Assembly (NCBI RefSeq): GCF_014696615.1
Contig: NZ_JACJQJ010000004.1
Span: 62,001-126,000, forward strand
Length of the DNA: 64,000 bases
Source: Nostoc linckia FACHB-104
Lineage (GTDB): Bacteria > Cyanobacteriota > Cyanobacteriia > Cyanobacteriales > Nostocaceae
Reading direction: 5' to 3'
Part shown: positions 38,173 to 46,801 of the stretch, one piece after another
Numbering within the stretch: the stretch's first letter is position 1
Layout: every line of letters starts with the position of its first letter
The notes under the pieces: generated by a model
What the model saw: only the letters and a program-made list of their open reading frames with translations
What the model was told of the DNA's origin: nothing
The model's database searches: none
Program-made: the position numbers and the translations under genes

Positions 38173-39005
38173 AATTTGTTCCTGATAAGGGTAGGATGCA
38201 GTCCAGGTTGATCACCTTAGCCTGCAAATGCATGGCTCATACTAAAGAATATTGTGACAGGAGTTACCAGAGTGCGATCGCGTTTTTTGCATTTATTTGA
38301 GTACCAGATCACAAACATAGCTTAAGTGCTGAGCGCTAGATATGAGAGATTTTAATTACAAGCACTGTGATTGATAGGATAACTGTCTAGCTAAAAAAGC
38401 TGAAGTCTATGGGAATAACTAATCGCATCAGACATCAAATAAAAAATAATTATCATTCGTGCTTTTGAAATATTTCATTATTGCTCTTGAATAGAGAAAA
38501 GTTTTTTTGAGCGGCAGTGTAATTATCTTGTGTGTTTTTGATTATCAAATTATGATTATCAAATCATGATTATCAGAATTTGATATCATTTATTCTGCTT
38601 TTAATTGCTAAGAATATTTGCAAATAAATACTTTTATTAAAGTTTTCTCATCTACTTTTTTGATTTTATCAAAATATGTGAAAAACAGTATTCAATAATA
38701 CAGAATTTATATTTATTTTTTAATTTTTTATATACAAGTGATTACTTAACATTAATCACTTGATAACTGATAGATAACTCTTCACGGATTAACTGTTTGT
38801 AAATATTCTTTAGCGCTATTTAAAAAGCTTTCCCAACACACACTCTTTTATGAGTGTTCTTCAAGCTTGCAAGCGTTAAAAATGAAAATTTTTTCAATCA
38901 TCTACCCAAATGGTTGATGTTTCAATATTCAGGAAACCCTAGCAAGTTCTAAATATTGAAAATCAAAAACATAGACAATACTTATTGGGAGTGAAGAATA
39001 CAACT
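38173..39005. other. Long AT-rich upstream region of the kinase-cyclase gene
   Basis: About 830 bp shared by glcD (minus) and the kinase-cyclase gene (plus). It holds the 14-bp triple repeat at 38539-38580 and a hairpin ACACTC-TTTTAT-GAGTGT at 38840-38857. No coding frame is supported. Confidence 0.5.
38539..38580. promoter_or_regulatory. Three tandem 14-bp dyad repeats (candidate operator)
   Basis: TGATTATCAAATTA, TGATTATCAAATCA and TGATTATCAGAATT follow each other without gap. The middle copy is an inverted repeat TGATT-N4-AATCA. Such regularly spaced dyads upstream of a signalling gene suggest a regulator-binding array. The regulator is unknown. Confidence 0.5.
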
Positions 39006-42000
39006 ATGATTACAGTATCAGGGTATCAAATTCTAGAAGCTATTTATGTAGGGTCAAAAACAGTCATTTATCGCGGCTTTAGAGTTTGGGATCAACAACC
39101 AATAATTGTGAAAGTAGTTAACAAAGAATATCCCACTCTTGGTGATATCGCTAGATTAAAGCATGAATATGACATCACCCAGATGCTGAATATGCCAGGA
39201 ATTGTCAAGTCTTATTGCCTGAAAAATACTCATGGCTCTCTAGCATTGATATTAGAAGATTTTGGCGGAGAATCGCTATATCAATTTATTCAAAGAAAAC
39301 CACTAACAATCCCAGAATTTTTGACAATTGCTATTAAATTAGCAGAAATTTTAGATGAATTGTTTAAAAAACGGATTATTCATCAGGATATTAAGCCACA
39401 CAATATTATTATTAACTCGCAAACTGGCGAGATAAAAATTACAGATTTTGCGATCGCCTCCCGCGTTTCTAGAGAAACCCAGTTTATTTGTAATCTCAAT
39501 CGTTTGGAAGGGACATTAGCTTATATGTCGCCAGAGCAAACAGGGAGGATGAATAGATCCATAGACTATCGGACTGACTTTTACTCTTTAGGTGTCACCT
39601 TTTATGAAATGCTCACCCAGCATTTGCCTTTTGAAACTAACGATGCAATGGAGTTGGTTCATTGTCATATTGCAAAACAGCCTGTACCACCCCATGAATT
39701 GAATTCGGATATTCCTGAAACAATTTCCGCTATTATCTTGAAATTGTTAGCAAAAATGTCGGAAGAAAGATATCAAAGTAGCTATGGATTGAGAGCAGAT
39801 TTGCAAAACTGCCTCAATCAATTATGCGAAACTAACCAAATTTCATACTTTCCATTAGGAGAGCAAGACATTTCACCAATCTTTCAAATCCCACAAAAAT
39901 TGTATGGCAGAGATAGAGAAATTGCCACTTTATTAGCTGCTTGTGAACGAGTACTAGGGGGAAATAGAGACAATTTATGCTTATATTCCCTATCTAGTTA
40001 TTCGGAAATGATGCTCATATCTGGTTATTCTGGTATCGGCAAATCAGCATTAGTACAAGAAGTTTATCAACCAATTACTAAGCACAAAGGATACTTTATT
40101 GCTGGGAAATGTAACCTGTTGCAGAGGAATATTCCCTATGCTGCCATAATTCCAGCCTTTCAGAAATTAATTCGCCAGTTGTTGACAGAATCTGATGCCC
40201 AAATTGCAGTTTGGCGGGGAAAAATTTTAGCTGCTTTATCGATTAATTGCCAGGTGATTATTAATGTAATTCCTGAAATTGAACTAATTGTAGGTCAACA
40301 GCCTGCTGTACCAGAAGTAGGGGTAGTAGAATCACAAAATCGCTTTAATAGGGTCTTGCAAAACTTCATCCATATATTTACTAAATCTGAACACCCCTTA
40401 GTAATTTTTTTAGATGATTTGCAATGGGCAGATTCTGCTTCTCTAAAACTGATCCAATTGCTTATGACAGAAGCCGATAGTCATTATTTATTTCTCATAG
40501 GTTCCTATCGAGATAAAGAAGTTAATGCAACTCATCCATTAATGTTGACATTAAAAGAAATTCAAAAGCACAATCACAAAATAAATTGTAGTAGTAATCT
40601 TTTTCCTAAGCTCAATTATATCTCTCTTTCTCCGTTAAATTTAGCTCATGTTACTCAGTTAATTACAGATACTCTACACTGCGAGCAATCGAAAGCTATG
40701 CCATTGGCGGAACTTGTTATTGAAAAAACTCATGGTAATCCTTTTTTTGTGAATGAATTCTTGAAATCCTTATATACACAAGAACTACTAGAATTTGATT
40801 TTATTCAGGGAGTATGGCAGTGGAATATAGCAGATATTCAAGCCACACCAATTACAAATAATGTTGTTAATTTAATGGCAGATAAAATTCAAAGACTCTC
40901 TGCTCAGACTCAACAAATTTTAAAGCTAGCCGCTTGTATTGGGTATCAATTTGATTTGCAAACCCTATCAATTGTCTATAAGAAAACTGCAATTGCCACT
41001 GCTAGTGATTTATGGGAAGCAATTGATTCAGGGCTAATTCTACCTTTAGGTAATGAGGAGCAACTACTGAGGGCGGAGGATTGGATCAAGCAAGAGACAG
41101 AAACAGAGTCAAAATTTGCCGTTTCTCATCTCCCGGCTTTGATATCTTACAAATTCTTGCACGATCGTGTACAGCAAGCTGCTTATTGTTTAATTCCCGA
41201 AGACCAAAAGCAAATAGTACATCTACAAGTAGGGCAACTACTACTCAAAAATAATCAATGTACCCGAGAGGAAAAAATTTTTGATCTTGTCAATCAACTC
41301 AATTTTGGAATGCAATTGATTACTAATCAATCAGAAAAGTATGAATTGGCAGAATTAAATCTCTATGCTGGTAAAAAATCCAAACTATCCGCCGCCTATA
41401 ATTCAGCAATGAATTACTTGCGAAATGGTATGAAGCTGTTAAGTGATTGTAGCTGGGATGAGCAATATGAACTGACACTAGCACTTTATCAAGAAGCTGT
41501 AGAAGCAGCCTACATCAATGGCGAGTTTGCAGAAATGGAGCGTTATATGCAAATAGTTCTACAACAAGCAAAAACTGTGCTTGATAAAGTAAAAGTGTAT
41601 GAAATTAAAATCCAATTTTGTGCTGCTCGCAATAAGATGCAGGGCACAATAGAAACAACCTTAGAAATTTTGGATTTGTTAGAAATTAGGTTTCCTAAAA
41701 ATCCTAGTAAATTAGATGTTCAACAGAGCTATAGAGAAACAAAATATGCATTGGCTGGCAAAGAACCTCTAGATTTACTTGACCTACCCAAAATGACAGA
41801 TCCCTATAAAATAGCTGCCCTCAGACTGATGTCAAATGTGACTATCAGTGCTTACAATACAGCACCTCTGATCTTTCAATTGATTACTCTGCAACAAGTG
41901 AAGCTATTAGTTCAGTATGGTAATTCTGCAGTTGCTGCTTCATCTTATGCTTGGTATGGCTTATTTTTGTCTGGTATTGTCGATGATATTGATACAGGTT

Positions 42001-44702
42001 ATGAGTTTGGGCAACTGGCATTAAAGATTTTAGATAAATTCGATGCTAAAGAATTCCAAGCTAAGACTTTTTTCGCCTTTAATATCTTTATTATGCCGTG
42101 GAAAATGCATATTAAAGAAACACTAAATCCTTTACTTAAAAGTTGTCAAATTGGTATAGAAATTGCAGATTTTGAATATGCTAGTCGAGCTGCGTTACAT
42201 TATGGTTGCCATTCTTATCTTGCAGGGAATTCATTGGTAGAAACTGAACAGGAGATGTCAAAATACAGCCATTTAATGCTGGAGTTAAAACAGGAGTCAG
42301 TACTTTGTAAGAATGAGATAATTCGCCGCTCTATTTTGAAATTACTGGACAGATTTGAACCCACAGTAGGTTGTAATTGCGGGGATTTTCATGATGAGAA
42401 ACTCCTGAAATTTTTGCTAGAAGCTAACCTATATCACACAATTTTTGTCTTAGCCATTAACAGACTCATAGTTAGTTACTTACTACAAGACTGGCCGCTA
42501 GTAAATCGGTACGCTGTGCTAGCAGAAAAATACATAGATAGCGGATGTGCTTTTATTCTCGGAGCCATATTTAACTTTTATGATTCTTTATATCAATTAG
42601 CTATCTATACAGATACTGAAAGTGATGAAAAAATCCAGATTTTAGAAAAAGTACATACTAACCAACAGAAAATGCAAATCTGGTCACACCATGCACCAAT
42701 GAATTTCTTACACAAGTTTCATTTAGTGGCAGCAGAAAGGCATCGAGTTTTGGGTGAAGATATTCAGGCAATAGACAACTATAATCGCGCCATAGAATTG
42801 TCTAAAGAACATGAATATTTACAAGAAGAAGCTTTGGCAAATGAACTAGCAGCAAAATTTTATTTAACAAAAGGCATGACCAAAATTGCTCAGGTTTACA
42901 TGGTGGATGCCCATTATTGTTATCAGCGATGGGGCGCGATCGCCAAAGTCAGACAGTTAGAAGAGACCTATCCTCAGCTGCTTATATGGCAATCTAGTAG
43001 TTTTGAAAAAGCGCGTACCAGCATCAGTCAAACCCTCAATCGTCTGACAACTTCCTCAACTTCTTCTAGCAGTGATAGTGGTGTTGCTGAAGCACTAGAC
43101 TTGGCAACTGTGATCAAAGCTTCCCAAGCGATCGCAGGTGAAATCGTCTTGGAGAATTTACTGGCGAAATTGATGGCGATCGTGATTGAAAATGCGGGAG
43201 CAACCAAAGGCTTTTTAATTCTCTGCCAAAACGGTGAACTGTGGATTAAAGCTGTCAAAGAAGTGGGTAGCGATACTGTCAAAGTTCTGCAATCATTGCC
43301 AGTGAATCACAGCGATTTGCTACCAACAGTCATCGTCAATTATGTAGCTAGAACCCAGTCGGATGTCGTCCTTACCAATGCTGCTTGTGAAGGGCTATTT
43401 ATTAAAGATATTTTTATTCAGGAAAATCAACCCCAATCACTTCTTTGTACTCCCATCCTTAATCAAGGCAAACTCATGGGTGTGTTGTATTTGGAAAATC
43501 ACCTAACAACAGGTGCATTTACAGACAATCACCTAGAAGTTTTGAAAATTTTATCTTCTCAAGCCGCTATTTCCATTGAAAACGCACTGCTATACCAAAC
43601 TCTAGAACAAAAAGTGCAGGAACGCACTACCCAACTGGCTCAAGCCAATATGGACTTAGAAAAACGGAATTTACTGATTCGTCAGGTGTTTGGACGTTAT
43701 TTAAGTGATGATATTGTTGCCAATTTGCTAGAAAGCCCAGAAAGATTGGAACTTGGTGGGGATAGAAGAAAAATGACGATCCTGACTTCTGATTTAAGAG
43801 GATTTACAGCCATCTCAGAGCGATCGCAACCAGAAGAAGTCATTAGTATCCTCAACATCTATTTTGAATTTATGGCAGATGTTATTACCAAGTATCAGGG
43901 AAGCATTAATGAGTTCATGGGTGATGGGATTTTGGTGCTATTTGGTGCCCCTACGCCCAGAAAAGATGATGCGCTAAGAGCTGTAGCTTGTGCTTGTGCT
44001 ATGCAGTTGGCAATGGATGCTGTGAATGAAAAATTGCAAGATTTAAATTTCCCTCAACTAGACATGGGTATTGGTATCAACACGGGTTTGGTAATTTTGG
44101 GAAATATTGGCTCAGAGAAACGAACTAAGTACGGTATTGTCGGCAGCCAAGTAAATCTAGCTTACCGGATTGAATCTTACAGTCTAGGGGGTGAGATTCT
44201 GATTTCAGAACAAACATTACAAGAAGTCGGCTCTATTGTCAGAATCAATGGGCAAAAGCAGGTACATCCTAAAGGAGTGAAACAACTAATTACTATTTAC
44301 AATGTTGACGGTATTGGCAAACCATACAACCTTTTTCTACCCAAAGAGGAAGAGATATTCTTCAATCTGACTGAAATCATCCCCATCCAGTACGCCATGA
44401 TTGAGGAAAAGCATATTCATGAAACTATGTTTCAGGGAAGTGTAATCCAAATCTCAGCAAGGGGAGCTAAAGTCTACTGTGAGAATCTATCTGAGGGTTG
44501 TTTACCGCCTGCACAAACCAACATTAAACTCAACTTATTAGTACCAAATATTCCAGCAGAACTGCAAGAAGATATATATGCTAAAGTATCGGAAAAATTA
44601 GCAGATTCTAGGAGTTTTTATCTTCATTTTTCTAGAAAATCTCTAGCTTTAGAGATGATGCGTTGGGCGAAATTTAAGTCAAAAAATATGCTTGTTTTTT
44701 AG
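39006..44702 (+). CDS. Giant Ser/Thr kinase - AAA ATPase - TPR-like - GAF - class III cyclase protein
   Basis: An 1898-aa multidomain signalling protein. Domain order: an N-terminal Ser/Thr kinase (about 8-275) with catalytic loop HQDIKPHN at 126-133 (HRD has become HQD) and DFA instead of DFG at 147-149; an AAA-type ATPase with Walker A GYSGIGKS at 340-347 and LDDLQWADSAS near 468; a long helical region to about 1360; a GAF domain (about 1366-1530); a signalling helix; a class III nucleotide cyclase (about 1590-1740) with metal Asp1596 and Asp1640 and transition-state Asn1717 and Arg1721; and a C-terminal PilZ-like domain. The N-terminal part is that of cyanobacterial kinases that usually end in a histidine kinase (HstK type); here the output is a cyclase. 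Base-selecting positions are Glu1636 and Gly1710. The start is the ATG at 39006, not the TTG at 38985. Confidence 0.92.
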   Translation: MITVSGYQILEAIYVGSKTVIYRGFRVWDQQPIIVKVVNKEYPTLGDIARLKHEYDITQMLNMPGIVKSYCLKNTHGSLALILEDFGGESLYQFIQRKPLTIPEFLTIAIKLAEILDELFKKRIIHQDIKPHNIIINSQTGEIKITDFAIASRVSRETQFICNLNRLEGTLAYMSPEQTGRMNRSIDYRTDFYSLGVTFYEMLTQHLPFETNDAMELVHCHIAKQPVPPHELNSDIPETISAIILKLLAKMSEERYQSSYGLRADLQNCLNQLCETNQISYFPLGEQDISPIFQIPQKLYGRDREIATLLAACERVLGGNRDNLCLYSLSSYSEMMLISGYSGIGKSALVQEVYQPITKHKGYFIAGKCNLLQRNIPYAAIIPAFQKLIRQLLTESDAQIAVWRGKILAALSINCQVIINVIPEIELIVGQQPAVPEVGVVESQNRFNRVLQNFIHIFTKSEHPLVIFLDDLQWADSASLKLIQLLMTEADSHYLFLIGSYRDKEVNATHPLMLTLKEIQKHNHKINCSSNLFPKLNYISLSPLNLAHVTQLITDTLHCEQSKAMPLAELVIEKTHGNPFFVNEFLKSLYTQELLEFDFIQGVWQWNIADIQATPITNNVVNLMADKIQRLSAQTQQILKLAACIGYQFDLQTLSIVYKKTAIATASDLWEAIDSGLILPLGNEEQLLRAEDWIKQETETESKFAVSHLPALISYKFLHDRVQQAAYCLIPEDQKQIVHLQVGQLLLKNNQCTREEKIFDLVNQLNFGMQLITNQSEKYELAELNLYAGKKSKLSAAYNSAMNYLRNGMKLLSDCSWDEQYELTLALYQEAVEAAYINGEFAEMERYMQIVLQQAKTVLDKVKVYEIKIQFCAARNKMQGTIETTLEILDLLEIRFPKNPSKLDVQQSYRETKYALAGKEPLDLLDLPKMTDPYKIAALRLMSNVTISAYNTAPLIFQLITLQQVKLLVQYGNSAVAASSYAWYGLFLSGIVDDIDTGYEFGQLALKILDKFDAKEFQAKTFFAFNIFIMPWKMHIKETLNPLLKSCQIGIEIADFEYASRAALHYGCHSYLAGNSLVETEQEMSKYSHLMLELKQESVLCKNEIIRRSILKLLDRFEPTVGCNCGDFHDEKLLKFLLEANLYHTIFVLAINRLIVSYLLQDWPLVNRYAVLAEKYIDSGCAFILGAIFNFYDSLYQLAIYTDTESDEKIQILEKVHTNQQKMQIWSHHAPMNFLHKFHLVAAERHRVLGEDIQAIDNYNRAIELSKEHEYLQEEALANELAAKFYLTKGMTKIAQVYMVDAHYCYQRWGAIAKVRQLEETYPQLLIWQSSSFEKARTSISQTLNRLTTSSTSSSSDSGVAEALDLATVIKASQAIAGEIVLENLLAKLMAIVIENAGATKGFLILCQNGELWIKAVKEVGSDTVKVLQSLPVNHSDLLPTVIVNYVARTQSDVVLTNAACEGLFIKDIFIQENQPQSLLCTPILNQGKLMGVLYLENHLTTGAFTDNHLEVLKILSSQAAISIENALLYQTLEQKVQERTTQLAQANMDLEKRNLLIRQVFGRYLSDDIVANLLESPERLELGGDRRKMTILTSDLRGFTAISERSQPEEVISILNIYFEFMADVITKYQGSINEFMGDGILVLFGAPTPRKDDALRAVACACAMQLAMDAVNEKLQDLNFPQLDMGIGINTGLVILGNIGSEKRTKYGIVGSQVNLAYRIESYSLGGEILISEQTLQEVGSIVRINGQKQVHPKGVKQLITIYNVDGIGKPYNLFLPKEEEIFFNLTEIIPIQYAMIEEKHIHETMFQGSVIQISARGAKVYCENLSEGCLPPAQTNIKLNLLVPNIPAELQEDIYAKVSEKLADSRSFYLHFSRKSLALEMMRWAKFKSKNMLVF
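43776..43837 (+). repeat. 62-bp block identical to 45872-45933 (cyclase domain)
   Basis: From ACGATCCTGACTTC to CGCAACCAGAAGA, the sequence matches the second cyclase gene base for base over 62 bp, whereas flanking codons differ at many synonymous sites. It covers the first metal-binding Asp of the cyclase domain. Confidence 0.85.
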
Positions 44703-44938: not shown

Positions 44939-46801
44939 ATGAATACGTTTATTTCTCGCGTATGGCGCTTTTTCCTCAGTCTGCTTTTTAAACAAACTGT
45001 TTTGATTCTTCTGCTCTTATTCTCCATTGGAGTGGGTGTAGCGTTAGCTAATATGTCTAGTCTTTCGACTAGCCTCATAAAATCCCAAGCGCTGATGAAT
45101 GCCGAATTGCAAGCAAAATCAATTATTGATGCTTGGAACCTTTATAGTAGTGCAGGTGCCGATCGCGCCAGAAAAGTTAAGGGAATTAGCATTATCCACA
45201 ACTACCTGATCAAAGAAGGTGCAATTCCTCCGCCTGCAACTTACGCCATTGAACTCGGAAAAAACATCAGCGAACAAAAGGCTGGGATGGCAGTCCGGTT
45301 ATACAGCGATTATCCATATCCTTGGCGAAAAGCCGAAGGTGGGCCCAGAGATGAGTTTGAGAAACAGGCACTTACCTACCTGAGACAACATCCCGAAGAG
45401 AACAATTTTTCTCGTCTTGAGAAAAAAGATGGTCGTAGTTTATGGCGATATGGCCAATCTGTACGCATGGAGGCTAGCTGCGTCGCTTGTCACGACAGCG
45501 ATCCTAATAGTCCAAAACGCGACTGGCAAGTAGGAGACGTGCGGGGAGTTTTGGCGATTACTCAATCTCTGGATAGCTTTACAGAACAAACTAATAAAAG
45601 TTTGCAAACAACATTTGTGATGTTGGGAGGATTATCTGTACTAGGACTTACTGGGTTAACTTTGGTTATTAGTAGGTTGCGCCAAACAGCTAGCGAATTA
45701 GAAGTGCGTGTCACAGAACGCACGGCTGATTTAGCTCAAGCTAATACAGATTTAGAAAAAAGAAATTCCCTAATTCGGCAAGTGTTTGGCCGTTATCTCA
45801 GTAATGAAATTGTCGCCAACTTGTTAGATAGTCCTGAAGGATTGAAACTGGGCGGTGAAAGGCGGAGAATCACGATCCTGACTTCTGATTTAAGAGGATT
45901 TACAGCCATCTCAGAGCGATCGCAACCAGAAGAGGTGATTACTATCCTCAACATCTATCTAGAATACATGGCTGATGTCATTACCCAGTACCAAGGAACT
46001 ATTAATGAATTCATGGGTGATGGCATTTTGGTGCTATTTGGCGCGCCTATGCCCAAAGAAGATGATGCTGCTAAAGCGGTAGCTTGTGCTTGTGCCATGC
46101 AATTAGCAATGAGTGCTGTCAATGAAAGGCTGCAAAATTTAGGTTTTCCTCAATTAGACATGGGAATTGGGATTAATACTGGATTGGTTATTTTGGGCAA
46201 TATTGGCTCACAAAAACGCACCAAATACGGAATTGTTGGTAGTCAGGTAAACCTGACTTATCGCATTGAATCTTACACAACAGGTGGCGAAATTTTAATT
46301 TCCGATGAGACATTAAAAGCTGCTGGATTAATTGTGCAAGTAAGTGGACATAGACAGGTACAACCAAAAGGAGTAAAACAGCCAATTACTGTCCATGAAG
46401 TTTATGGAATTAGCGGAGATTACAATCTTTTTCTACCTAGAGAAGCAGAAGAATTTTTGCCACTCTCAGGCATCATCCCTGTACAATACGCATTATTAGA
46501 AGAAAAGCATATTAGCACAACTATATATCAAGGAAGTATCGTTGAATTGTCAGCTAAGGGTGCTAAAATTCGCATAGAAAATGCAGCAGGAGTTTCTCCA
46601 CCACCTATACAGACTAATCTCAAACTCAAATTAATGGTACCAAACATTTCCCCAGAACTTCAAGAAGATATCTATGCCAAGGTGTTTGACAGACAAGCAG
46701 AAAATGGGAGTTTTTATATTCATTTCACTGCTAAACCGCCAGCTATCCAAGCAAGATTAGACGCTATATACCAATCTCTAAAAGGAGCAGAACAATCGTG
46801 A
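44939..46801 (+). CDS. Membrane class III cyclase with DUF3365/Tll0287-like c-heme sensor domain
   Basis: A 620-aa protein anchored by two membrane helices (about 15-38 and 223-246). Between them is an extracytoplasmic domain of the DUF3365 (Tll0287-like) type with GKNISEQKAGMAVRLYSDYPYPW-like motifs (for example VRLYSDYPYPWR) and a c-type heme site CVACH at 181-185. A signalling helix (VTERTADLAQANTDLEKRNSLIRQ) leads to the cyclase domain (about 310-455), with Asp317 and Asp361 for metals, Asn438 and Arg442 for catalysis, and Glu357/Gly431 at base-selecting positions. A PilZ-like C-terminal domain follows. The cyclase and tail are paralogous to those of the gene just upstream. It is likely a redox-, ligand- or heme-controlled cyclic nucleotide producer. 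The ATG at 44939 is preferred; a GTG precedes it directly. Confidence 0.92.
   Translation: MNTFISRVWRFFLSLLFKQTVLILLLLFSIGVGVALANMSSLSTSLIKSQALMNAELQAKSIIDAWNLYSSAGADRARKVKGISIIHNYLIKEGAIPPPATYAIELGKNISEQKAGMAVRLYSDYPYPWRKAEGGPRDEFEKQALTYLRQHPEENNFSRLEKKDGRSLWRYGQSVRMEASCVACHDSDPNSPKRDWQVGDVRGVLAITQSLDSFTEQTNKSLQTTFVMLGGLSVLGLTGLTLVISRLRQTASELEVRVTERTADLAQANTDLEKRNSLIRQVFGRYLSNEIVANLLDSPEGLKLGGERRRITILTSDLRGFTAISERSQPEEVITILNIYLEYMADVITQYQGTINEFMGDGILVLFGAPMPKEDDAAKAVACACAMQLAMSAVNERLQNLGFPQLDMGIGINTGLVILGNIGSQKRTKYGIVGSQVNLTYRIESYTTGGEILISDETLKAAGLIVQVSGHRQVQPKGVKQPITVHEVYGISGDYNLFLPREAEEFLPLSGIIPVQYALLEEKHISTTIYQGSIVELSAKGAKIRIENAAGVSPPPIQTNLKLKLMVPNISPELQEDIYAKVFDRQAENGSFYIHFTAKPPAIQARLDAIYQSLKGAEQS
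45872..45933 (+). repeat. 62-bp block identical to 43776-43837
   Basis: Second copy of the identical segment, inside the heme-sensor cyclase gene. Confidence 0.85.

Follow-up and report, generated by a model that had tools for sequence, protein, structure and literature searches.

A Cya2-type cyclase joined to a predicted extracytoplasmic c-type heme sensor in Nostoc linckia: a candidate membrane receptor guanylyl cyclase

Which external cue could be read by a cyanobacterial cyclase that carries a c-type heme motif between two membrane segments, and into which cyclic nucleotide would that cue be converted? The question is raised by one gene in a stretch of 64,000 nt from Nostoc linckia FACHB-104 (assembly GCF_014696615.1, contig NZ_JACJQJ010000004.1, positions 62,001-126,000 of the forward strand), hereafter called the window. 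A passage of a 2014 review (PMC4284465) names Cya2 as the sole bacterial guanylyl cyclase to have been confirmed, and few cGMP targets are known in bacteria, cyanobacteria included, according to a section of a 2023 review (PMC10117731). We propose, with a probability of about two in three, that the gene codes for a membrane receptor guanylyl cyclase whose external c-heme sensor would control cGMP synthesis. A heme sensor placed on a Cya2-type cyclase would provide a concrete and testable input for cGMP in cyanobacteria.

Layout of the protein and its sensor domain

The following features of the window are referred to throughout:

38985-44702, plus strand: upstream neighbour, Ser/Thr kinase, AAA_16, GAF, Cya2-type cyclase and PilZ-like tail (1905 aa)
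44939-46801, plus strand: heme-cyclase gene, TM, sCache_heme (DUF3365), TM, signalling helix, class III cyclase and PilZ-like domain (620 aa)
44960-45067, plus strand: TM1, first hydrophobic segment, inside residues 8-43 (Kyte-Doolittle)
45080-45565, plus strand: DUF3365/Tll0287-like (sCache_heme) sensor, residues 48-209, predicted extracytoplasmic (PF11845, AlphaFold2, Foldseek)
45479-45493, plus strand: CVACH heme-c attachment motif, residues 181-185 (sequence; 80/80 loci)
45608-45673, plus strand: TM2, second hydrophobic segment, residues 224-245 (hydropathy)
45674-45844, plus strand: signalling helix and cyclase-transducing element, FGRY at residues 283-286 (sequence)
45845-46408, plus strand: class III nucleotide cyclase domain, Cya2 type (PF00211; 2w01, 273 bits)
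46007-46009, plus strand: codon of Glu357, aligned with Cya2 Glu488, GTP selection (alignment)
46436-46798, plus strand: PilZ-fold domain at the C terminus, lacking the RxxxR motif for c-di-GMP, residues 500-620 (AlphaFold2, Foldseek)

The frame is open without interruption from 44936/44939 to 46801 on the plus strand and codes for 620 aa counted from the ATG at 44939, a start that agrees with the alignment of 12 full-length copies. An original prediction made from the letters of this DNA had described two membrane helices around a CVACH domain, and hydrophobic segments at residues 8-43 and 224-245 indeed flank CVACH at 181-185. It had also claimed a class III cyclase with its metal and transition-state residues, which were placed by motif positions at D317 and D361 and at N438 and R442, respectively, and it had assigned the outer domain to the DUF3365/Tll0287 family. 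The two Pfam searches that it suggested as a check bear this out: the protein scored 68.7 bits with PF11845 (Tll0287-like; cut-off 24.1, E 9e-19) and 91.7 bits with PF00211 (Guanylate_cyc; cut-off 21.9). Neither the C-terminal PilZ-like domain nor the guanylyl-type, rather than adenylyl-type, substrate residues had been mentioned. Its remark that such a pairing was not known to be characterised stood only in part: the sections of a preprint of February 2026 from its abstract to its purification methods (PMC12889525) include no test of such a protein, but the legend of its Fig. 2B lists PF00211 among the most frequent partners of the sensor. The bare pairing of sensor and cyclase is therefore not new, and we gave up the notion that it was wholly unreported. 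In the openly licensed papers searched, no earlier report was found of the swapped sensor, of the assignment as guanylyl cyclase or of the conserved NB-ARC-WD40 neighbour described below.

Relatives of the sensor were fetched from genome contigs by peptide patterns taken from the window sensor and 11 relatives and lying outside the heme motif. In the best 80 of the 92 relatives found, CxxCH is present in the matched frame of every locus (80/80), and since the fetching patterns did not contain the motif, its conservation goes beyond chance. The motif is likewise kept in 12/12 full-length copies (the window's and 11 relatives) among 99 genomes of the same family, and PF11845 was matched at E<=0.001 by 81/81 proteins, namely the 80 loci and the window's own. 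Compared with three relatives, the sensor gave dN/dS values of 0.04, 0.08 and 0.13, and both sensor and cyclase are under purifying selection. We consider it very probable that the sensor binds heme c. ResB of the Ccs pathway is encoded in the host genome, so c-heme can be made in this strain.

An AlphaFold2 model of the sensor built from 45 sequences reached a pLDDT of 91.7. With Foldseek, its best PDB match was 3b42, the c-heme sensor GSU0935 (E 1.6e-3, probability 0.99, TM 0.33/0.47), and the matches after it included SMU_1151c, WalK and CitA-like sensors; the best PDB matches ranged from E 1.6e-3 to 1e-2 with low to middling TM values, and none fell under E 0.001. The solved protein nearest to a sequence profile of the 45 sensors was Tll0287 (E 0.0073). 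The fold comparison, made against the Cache fold with helix-loop insert that marks the family, is concordant yet not strong, and we therefore derive family membership chiefly from the motif and the PF11845 match. The Geobacter chemotaxis sensors GSU0582 and GSU0935 share with the window protein a periplasmic c-heme sensor, but their output is a chemoreceptor domain reached via HAMP, as described in a section of PMC8396549, whereas Pfam gave no HAMP match in the window protein.

No Cys lies between 124 and 39 residues ahead of the first heme Cys in the 80 loci, one of which (L107) begins 98 residues before that Cys, so the axial cysteine of Tll0287, which we take to be Cys46, has no counterpart in these sensors. 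A Met four residues ahead of the first heme Cys is invariant in the Cya2-type loci (25/25). An assignment of the distal ligand by alignment to Met60 of GSU0935 or to Tll0287 was abandoned, as Tll0287 alone could be aligned, and this no further than over the second half of the domain. Five more PF11845 frames of 307-363 codons occur in the same genome (L001-L005); inspected by eye, they have a TM-sensor-TM-HAMP look, which is the layout given for the NO-binding Target 2 in a passage of PMC12889525.

Candidate signals and a proposed mechanism

We propose the following chain of events, in which heme loading, GTP use, coupling and ligand are the inferred elements. One c-type heme would be carried by the extracytoplasmic Cache domain, attached at CVACH by Ccs (system II), with His185 as the proximal ligand and a distal side without cysteine. 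The trigger at the heme would most likely be the binding of NO and/or a redox-driven exchange of ligands, upon which the helices running through TM2 would shift and, by way of the signalling helix and the FGRY element, alter the dimeric cyclase that would convert GTP to cGMP. The PilZ-like domain would be accessory and would not bind c-di-GMP. The FGRY element is named in a passage of PMC5995499 and is also present in the alignment of 6fht with the heme cyclase. That the state of the heme regulates cyclase activity seems likely to us.

The odds between NO and plain redox as the trigger appear nearly even, and NO, not bulk redox, is put forward as the main signal only tentatively, at a little short of an even chance. 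The window protein shares with the sCache_heme proteins treated in part of PMC12889525 the PF11845 match, the CxxCH, the two flanking TM helices, the lack of an axial Cys and the fusion to a signalling module; fusion to a signalling output and lack of the axial Cys are the features by which that source delimits its NO-sensing subset (Cluster 2), and both are present here. In the experiments described there, NO was bound, and slowly released, by a member from Pseudomonas that has TM helices and HAMP but no axial Cys and that formed no stable oxy complex, and a stand-alone Cys/His member resembled a redox protein. The window protein differs from both in its Cya2-type cyclase output; since those experiments covered a single representative of each kind, NO sensing by the window protein would be an extrapolation.

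A redox sensor, in which the external c-heme would be oxidised or reduced, a distal water or Met would exchange and the cyclic nucleotide output would thereby be set, with NO binding incidental, is a serious alternative that we nevertheless hold to be somewhat improbable. Such a mechanism, in which Met60 and water change places with the redox state, is proposed in a section of PMC8396549 for GSU0582 and GSU0935, which bound NO and CO too, and the invariant Met ahead of the first heme Cys of the Cya2-type loci would fit it, but the placement of this Met at the iron has no support, and the behaviour of the membrane-anchored Pseudomonas protein points towards NO.

The distribution of other genes was examined in a draw of 386 genomes across the phylum, 38 of which gave a match to the sensor, 23 of them above 200 bits. 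Copper nitrite reductase exceeded its cut-off in 6/386 genomes and in 0/23 of those with the strong sensor match; its distribution therefore lends NO no support, and a link between the two was discarded. Weaker matches, found in 100/386 genomes, are probably multicopper-oxidase. H-NOX was commoner in genomes with the sensor (6/23 vs 21/363, Fisher p 0.003, uncorrected for kinship or genome size). The one H-NOX match of the window's own genome is a separate stand-alone frame of 206 aa (L147, C160:131668-132153), which gives the strain another candidate for the sensing of NO.

Should NO prove to be the ligand, the protein would be a second, convergent NO-cGMP switch with its sensor outside the cell. 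Animal soluble guanylyl cyclase, built of H-NOX, HNOBA and cyclase, would work alike through heme, NO and cGMP, but its sensor is unrelated: the window protein has no PF07700 (H-NOX/HNOB) match up to E 1 and would hold a c-type heme outside the membrane on a Cache fold, so that the functional similarity would be convergent.

Cyclase domain and choice of substrate

We then asked which nucleotide the cyclase would use. The top match of a sequence search against the PDB (phmmer) was 6fht, a phytochrome fusion of Cya2 (E 1.8e-90); among natural cyclases Cya2 (2w01) came first with 273 bits (E 3.9e-80), the next being CyaB with 121 bits. The substrate residues E357, G431 and Y441 (E-G-Y) are identical to those of Cya2. 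An E-G pair together with a Tyr is given as a set of guanylyl features, described for Cya2, in a passage of PMC4215837, and the change E488K turns Cya2 to ATP according to part of PMC5995499. The catalytic motifs are kept in 25/25 intact Cya2-type heme loci, and so is E-G-Y; L071, which is split in its contig, was excluded. Among the 99 genomes of the same family, a set that overlaps these 25 loci, E-G-Y was found in 12/12 full-length copies, the window's own counted. On these residues, the product is probably cGMP and GTP the main substrate, and an assignment as adenylyl cyclase by default is countered by E-G-Y and by Cya2 as the nearest solved cyclase. Synechocystis Cya2 (sll0646) further shares with the window protein the catalytic domain, FGRY and some 120 additional residues at the C terminus, but its extracytoplasmic sensor is CHASE2, as a section of PMC5995499 describes, and that of the window protein is the c-heme Cache domain.

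A contrast set of 18 other Cya2-family loci (L019-L036) was less uniform. E-G-Y was read in 12 of them; L019 has E at the first site, its remaining substrate residues being unread by the pattern, and the departures are K in L032, E with T in L033 and L034, and D with T in L035 and L036. In the phylum-wide draw, one Cya2-type heme cyclase (L124) has K and S at the two main substrate sites, so the heme-bearing Cya2-type family is not uniformly guanylyl. L124 may be looked upon as a natural counterpart of the E488K change in Cya2.

The outputs joined to the sensor in the 80 loci comprise 26 Cya2-type cyclases, 23 cyclases of a second type, 6 GGDEF proteins recognised by motif and 25 loci left unsorted by the patterns. 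Pfam found PF00211 in 50 of the 81 proteins, HATPase_c in 17, GGDEF in 6 and MCPsignal in 2, and HNOBA was matched by 19/81. Relatives of about 510 aa had been taken for histidine kinases, a view that we dropped when Pfam and the sequences revealed the second cyclase type, presumably CyaG-like. Its members (L047, L049, L054, L063 and others) have K at the first substrate site in 23/23 cases and K-D in 22/22 with the whole motif, L052 being excluded as cut by its contig end. They have the same sensor subfamily and layout as the window protein and differ from it in the K-D residues; those looked at are shorter and without the PilZ-like tail. The same heme sensor is thus also carried by a cyclase with residues of the adenylyl type. 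The best 24 loci of the phylum draw (L117-L140) held 7 Cya2 cyclases of the E type, 11 cyclases of the second, K type and the Cya2-type K-S case of L124; in the remainder, L131 stops soon after the sensor and 4 have no cyclase motif. How a single signal is turned into cGMP or into cAMP could be studied cleanly with the natural E/K contrast and the two cyclase types that share this sensor.

Most bacterial class III cyclases are adenylyl cyclases, and the window protein could be mainly one too. The Lys of L124 at a key site within the same family and the K-D of the second type on the same sensor would agree with this, as would the equal affinity of Cya2 for both substrates reported in a passage of PMC4215837, but the clean division between E-G-Y, in the window protein and all intact Cya2-type heme loci, and K-D, in all intact second-type loci, makes it improbable. 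That the heme is only structural, with another small molecule in the Cache pocket as the signal or the protein constitutive, we consider very unlikely: Cache domains usually bind small ligands, as stated in part of PMC12889525, and the fold matches include the non-heme sensors WalK and CitA, but CxxCH is kept in all 80 loci and the sensor is under strong purifying selection.

Origin of the fusion, C-terminal tail and neighbouring genes

To return to the guanylyl cyclase reading, the history of the protein was followed in a tree of the catalytic and tail regions that included the window's cyclase and 22 of the 26 heme loci, L038, L061, L065 and L071 being left out. The resulting 23 heme cyclases and 3 kinase-linked cyclases form one set within the Cya2 family (SH-aLRT 82), and with L019 added the set has an SH-aLRT of 97; 2w01 itself sits on a long branch whose position is uncertain. 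Of five other Cya2-family proteins scanned, L019 has a response-regulator receiver domain and the remaining four have CHASE2. As Pfam gave no CHASE2 match in the window's heme cyclase, this protein is not orthologous to Cya2 over its whole length, and their relationship is limited to the catalytic half and the tail. We read this as an exchange of sensors on a Cya2-like protein, in which CHASE2 would have been replaced by the c-heme Cache sensor. In a tree of the sensors (78 loci and the window's, L107 and L115 left out), the Cya2-type label needs 3 changes and 35/76 inner branches are open. A single fusion could therefore not be read from the sensor tree, and the case for a single origin comes from the cyclase tree alone.

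The tail of the protein has a PilZ fold by prediction. An AlphaFold2 model of the last 129 residues had a pLDDT of 83.3, and Foldseek ranks 1-32 were all PilZ proteins or complexes containing a PilZ domain, some of which we take to be PilZ; the Pfam PilZ score of 16.9 stays below the cut-off of 22.5. In a pattern test of the stretch before LSxKG, the RxxxR motif for c-di-GMP was absent from the window protein and from 22/22 relatives examined, which makes c-di-GMP binding by the tail unlikely; a degenerate LSxKG persists in most tails. According to a passage of PMC5995499, the activity of Cya2 is raised by its 118-residue extension, which is called structurally uncharacterized there; PilZ can now be offered as the predicted fold of this C-terminal part in Cya2-type cyclases.

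The upstream kinase gene also ends in a Cya2-type cyclase and tail, which over residues 253-607 of the query are 70% identical to the heme cyclase and are nested inside the heme-cyclase set (SH-aLRT 97). On this basis, we infer that the kinase-linked cyclase goes back to a duplication in place and that a kinase gene captured the copy. It was rejected as a conserved partner, as it adjoins the heme cyclase only in the window, L037, L038, L008 and L009 among the loci checked, the last two judged from short flanks. The kinase-linked cyclase likewise has E-G-Y.

A different gene is a better candidate for a partner. An NB-ARC-WD40 (NB-ARC/STAND) gene of about 1200 codons lies upstream and divergent in 16/26 Cya2-type loci (L042, L045, L048, L050, L051, where it is in two frames, L053, L055, L056, L057, L060, L061, L062, L065, L068, L071 and L094). 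Each of five neighbour copies scanned whole gave 12-13 WD40 matches, and NB-ARC was matched by the front parts of five copies, four of them the same as those scanned for WD40; the first ~110 residues of the protein had no Pfam match. When the L045 copy was searched in five genomes, its own genome returned the query, and in the other four the best match was the copy beside the heme cyclase, as located by arithmetic on contig ranges, with 757, 729, 697 and 668 bits (62, 61, 59 and 58% identity); the next copy in the same genomes reached 477, 511, 488 and 458 bits. A few shorter NB-ARC-WD40 matches reach 53-54%, and fragments 60%. Such a pattern is what would be expected of an orthologue kept in place. 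The window's own genome holds 23 NB-ARC-WD40 matches, the best of which (589 bits, 52%) is on a different contig and falls between the ranges of the adjacent and the next copies, so it could be a moved orthologue or a paralogue. The front part was also matched, with E values no higher than 1e-10, by four K-D-type loci among the 80, in L075, L080 and L081 at 33-35% and in L077 at 64% over 83 residues at a contig end. Taken together, this gene order suggests a functional link of the NB-ARC-WD40 gene with the Cya2-type heme cyclase.

In its widest form, which we regard as possible but doubtful, the proposal would be that of a one-protein NO-to-cGMP receptor independent of animal soluble guanylyl cyclase, with the divergent NB-ARC-WD40 partner, found beside the cGMP version in many lineages, maybe acting downstream and with a sensor that would read its cue into cGMP or cAMP; since the same sensor is also found on the adenylyl-type cyclase, related strains would, within that reading, turn one outside cue into either nucleotide. 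For L038, the nearly identical relative from Nostoc carneum NIES-2107, the record bears the title plasmid1 and also contains homologues of the genes that flank the heme cyclase in the window.
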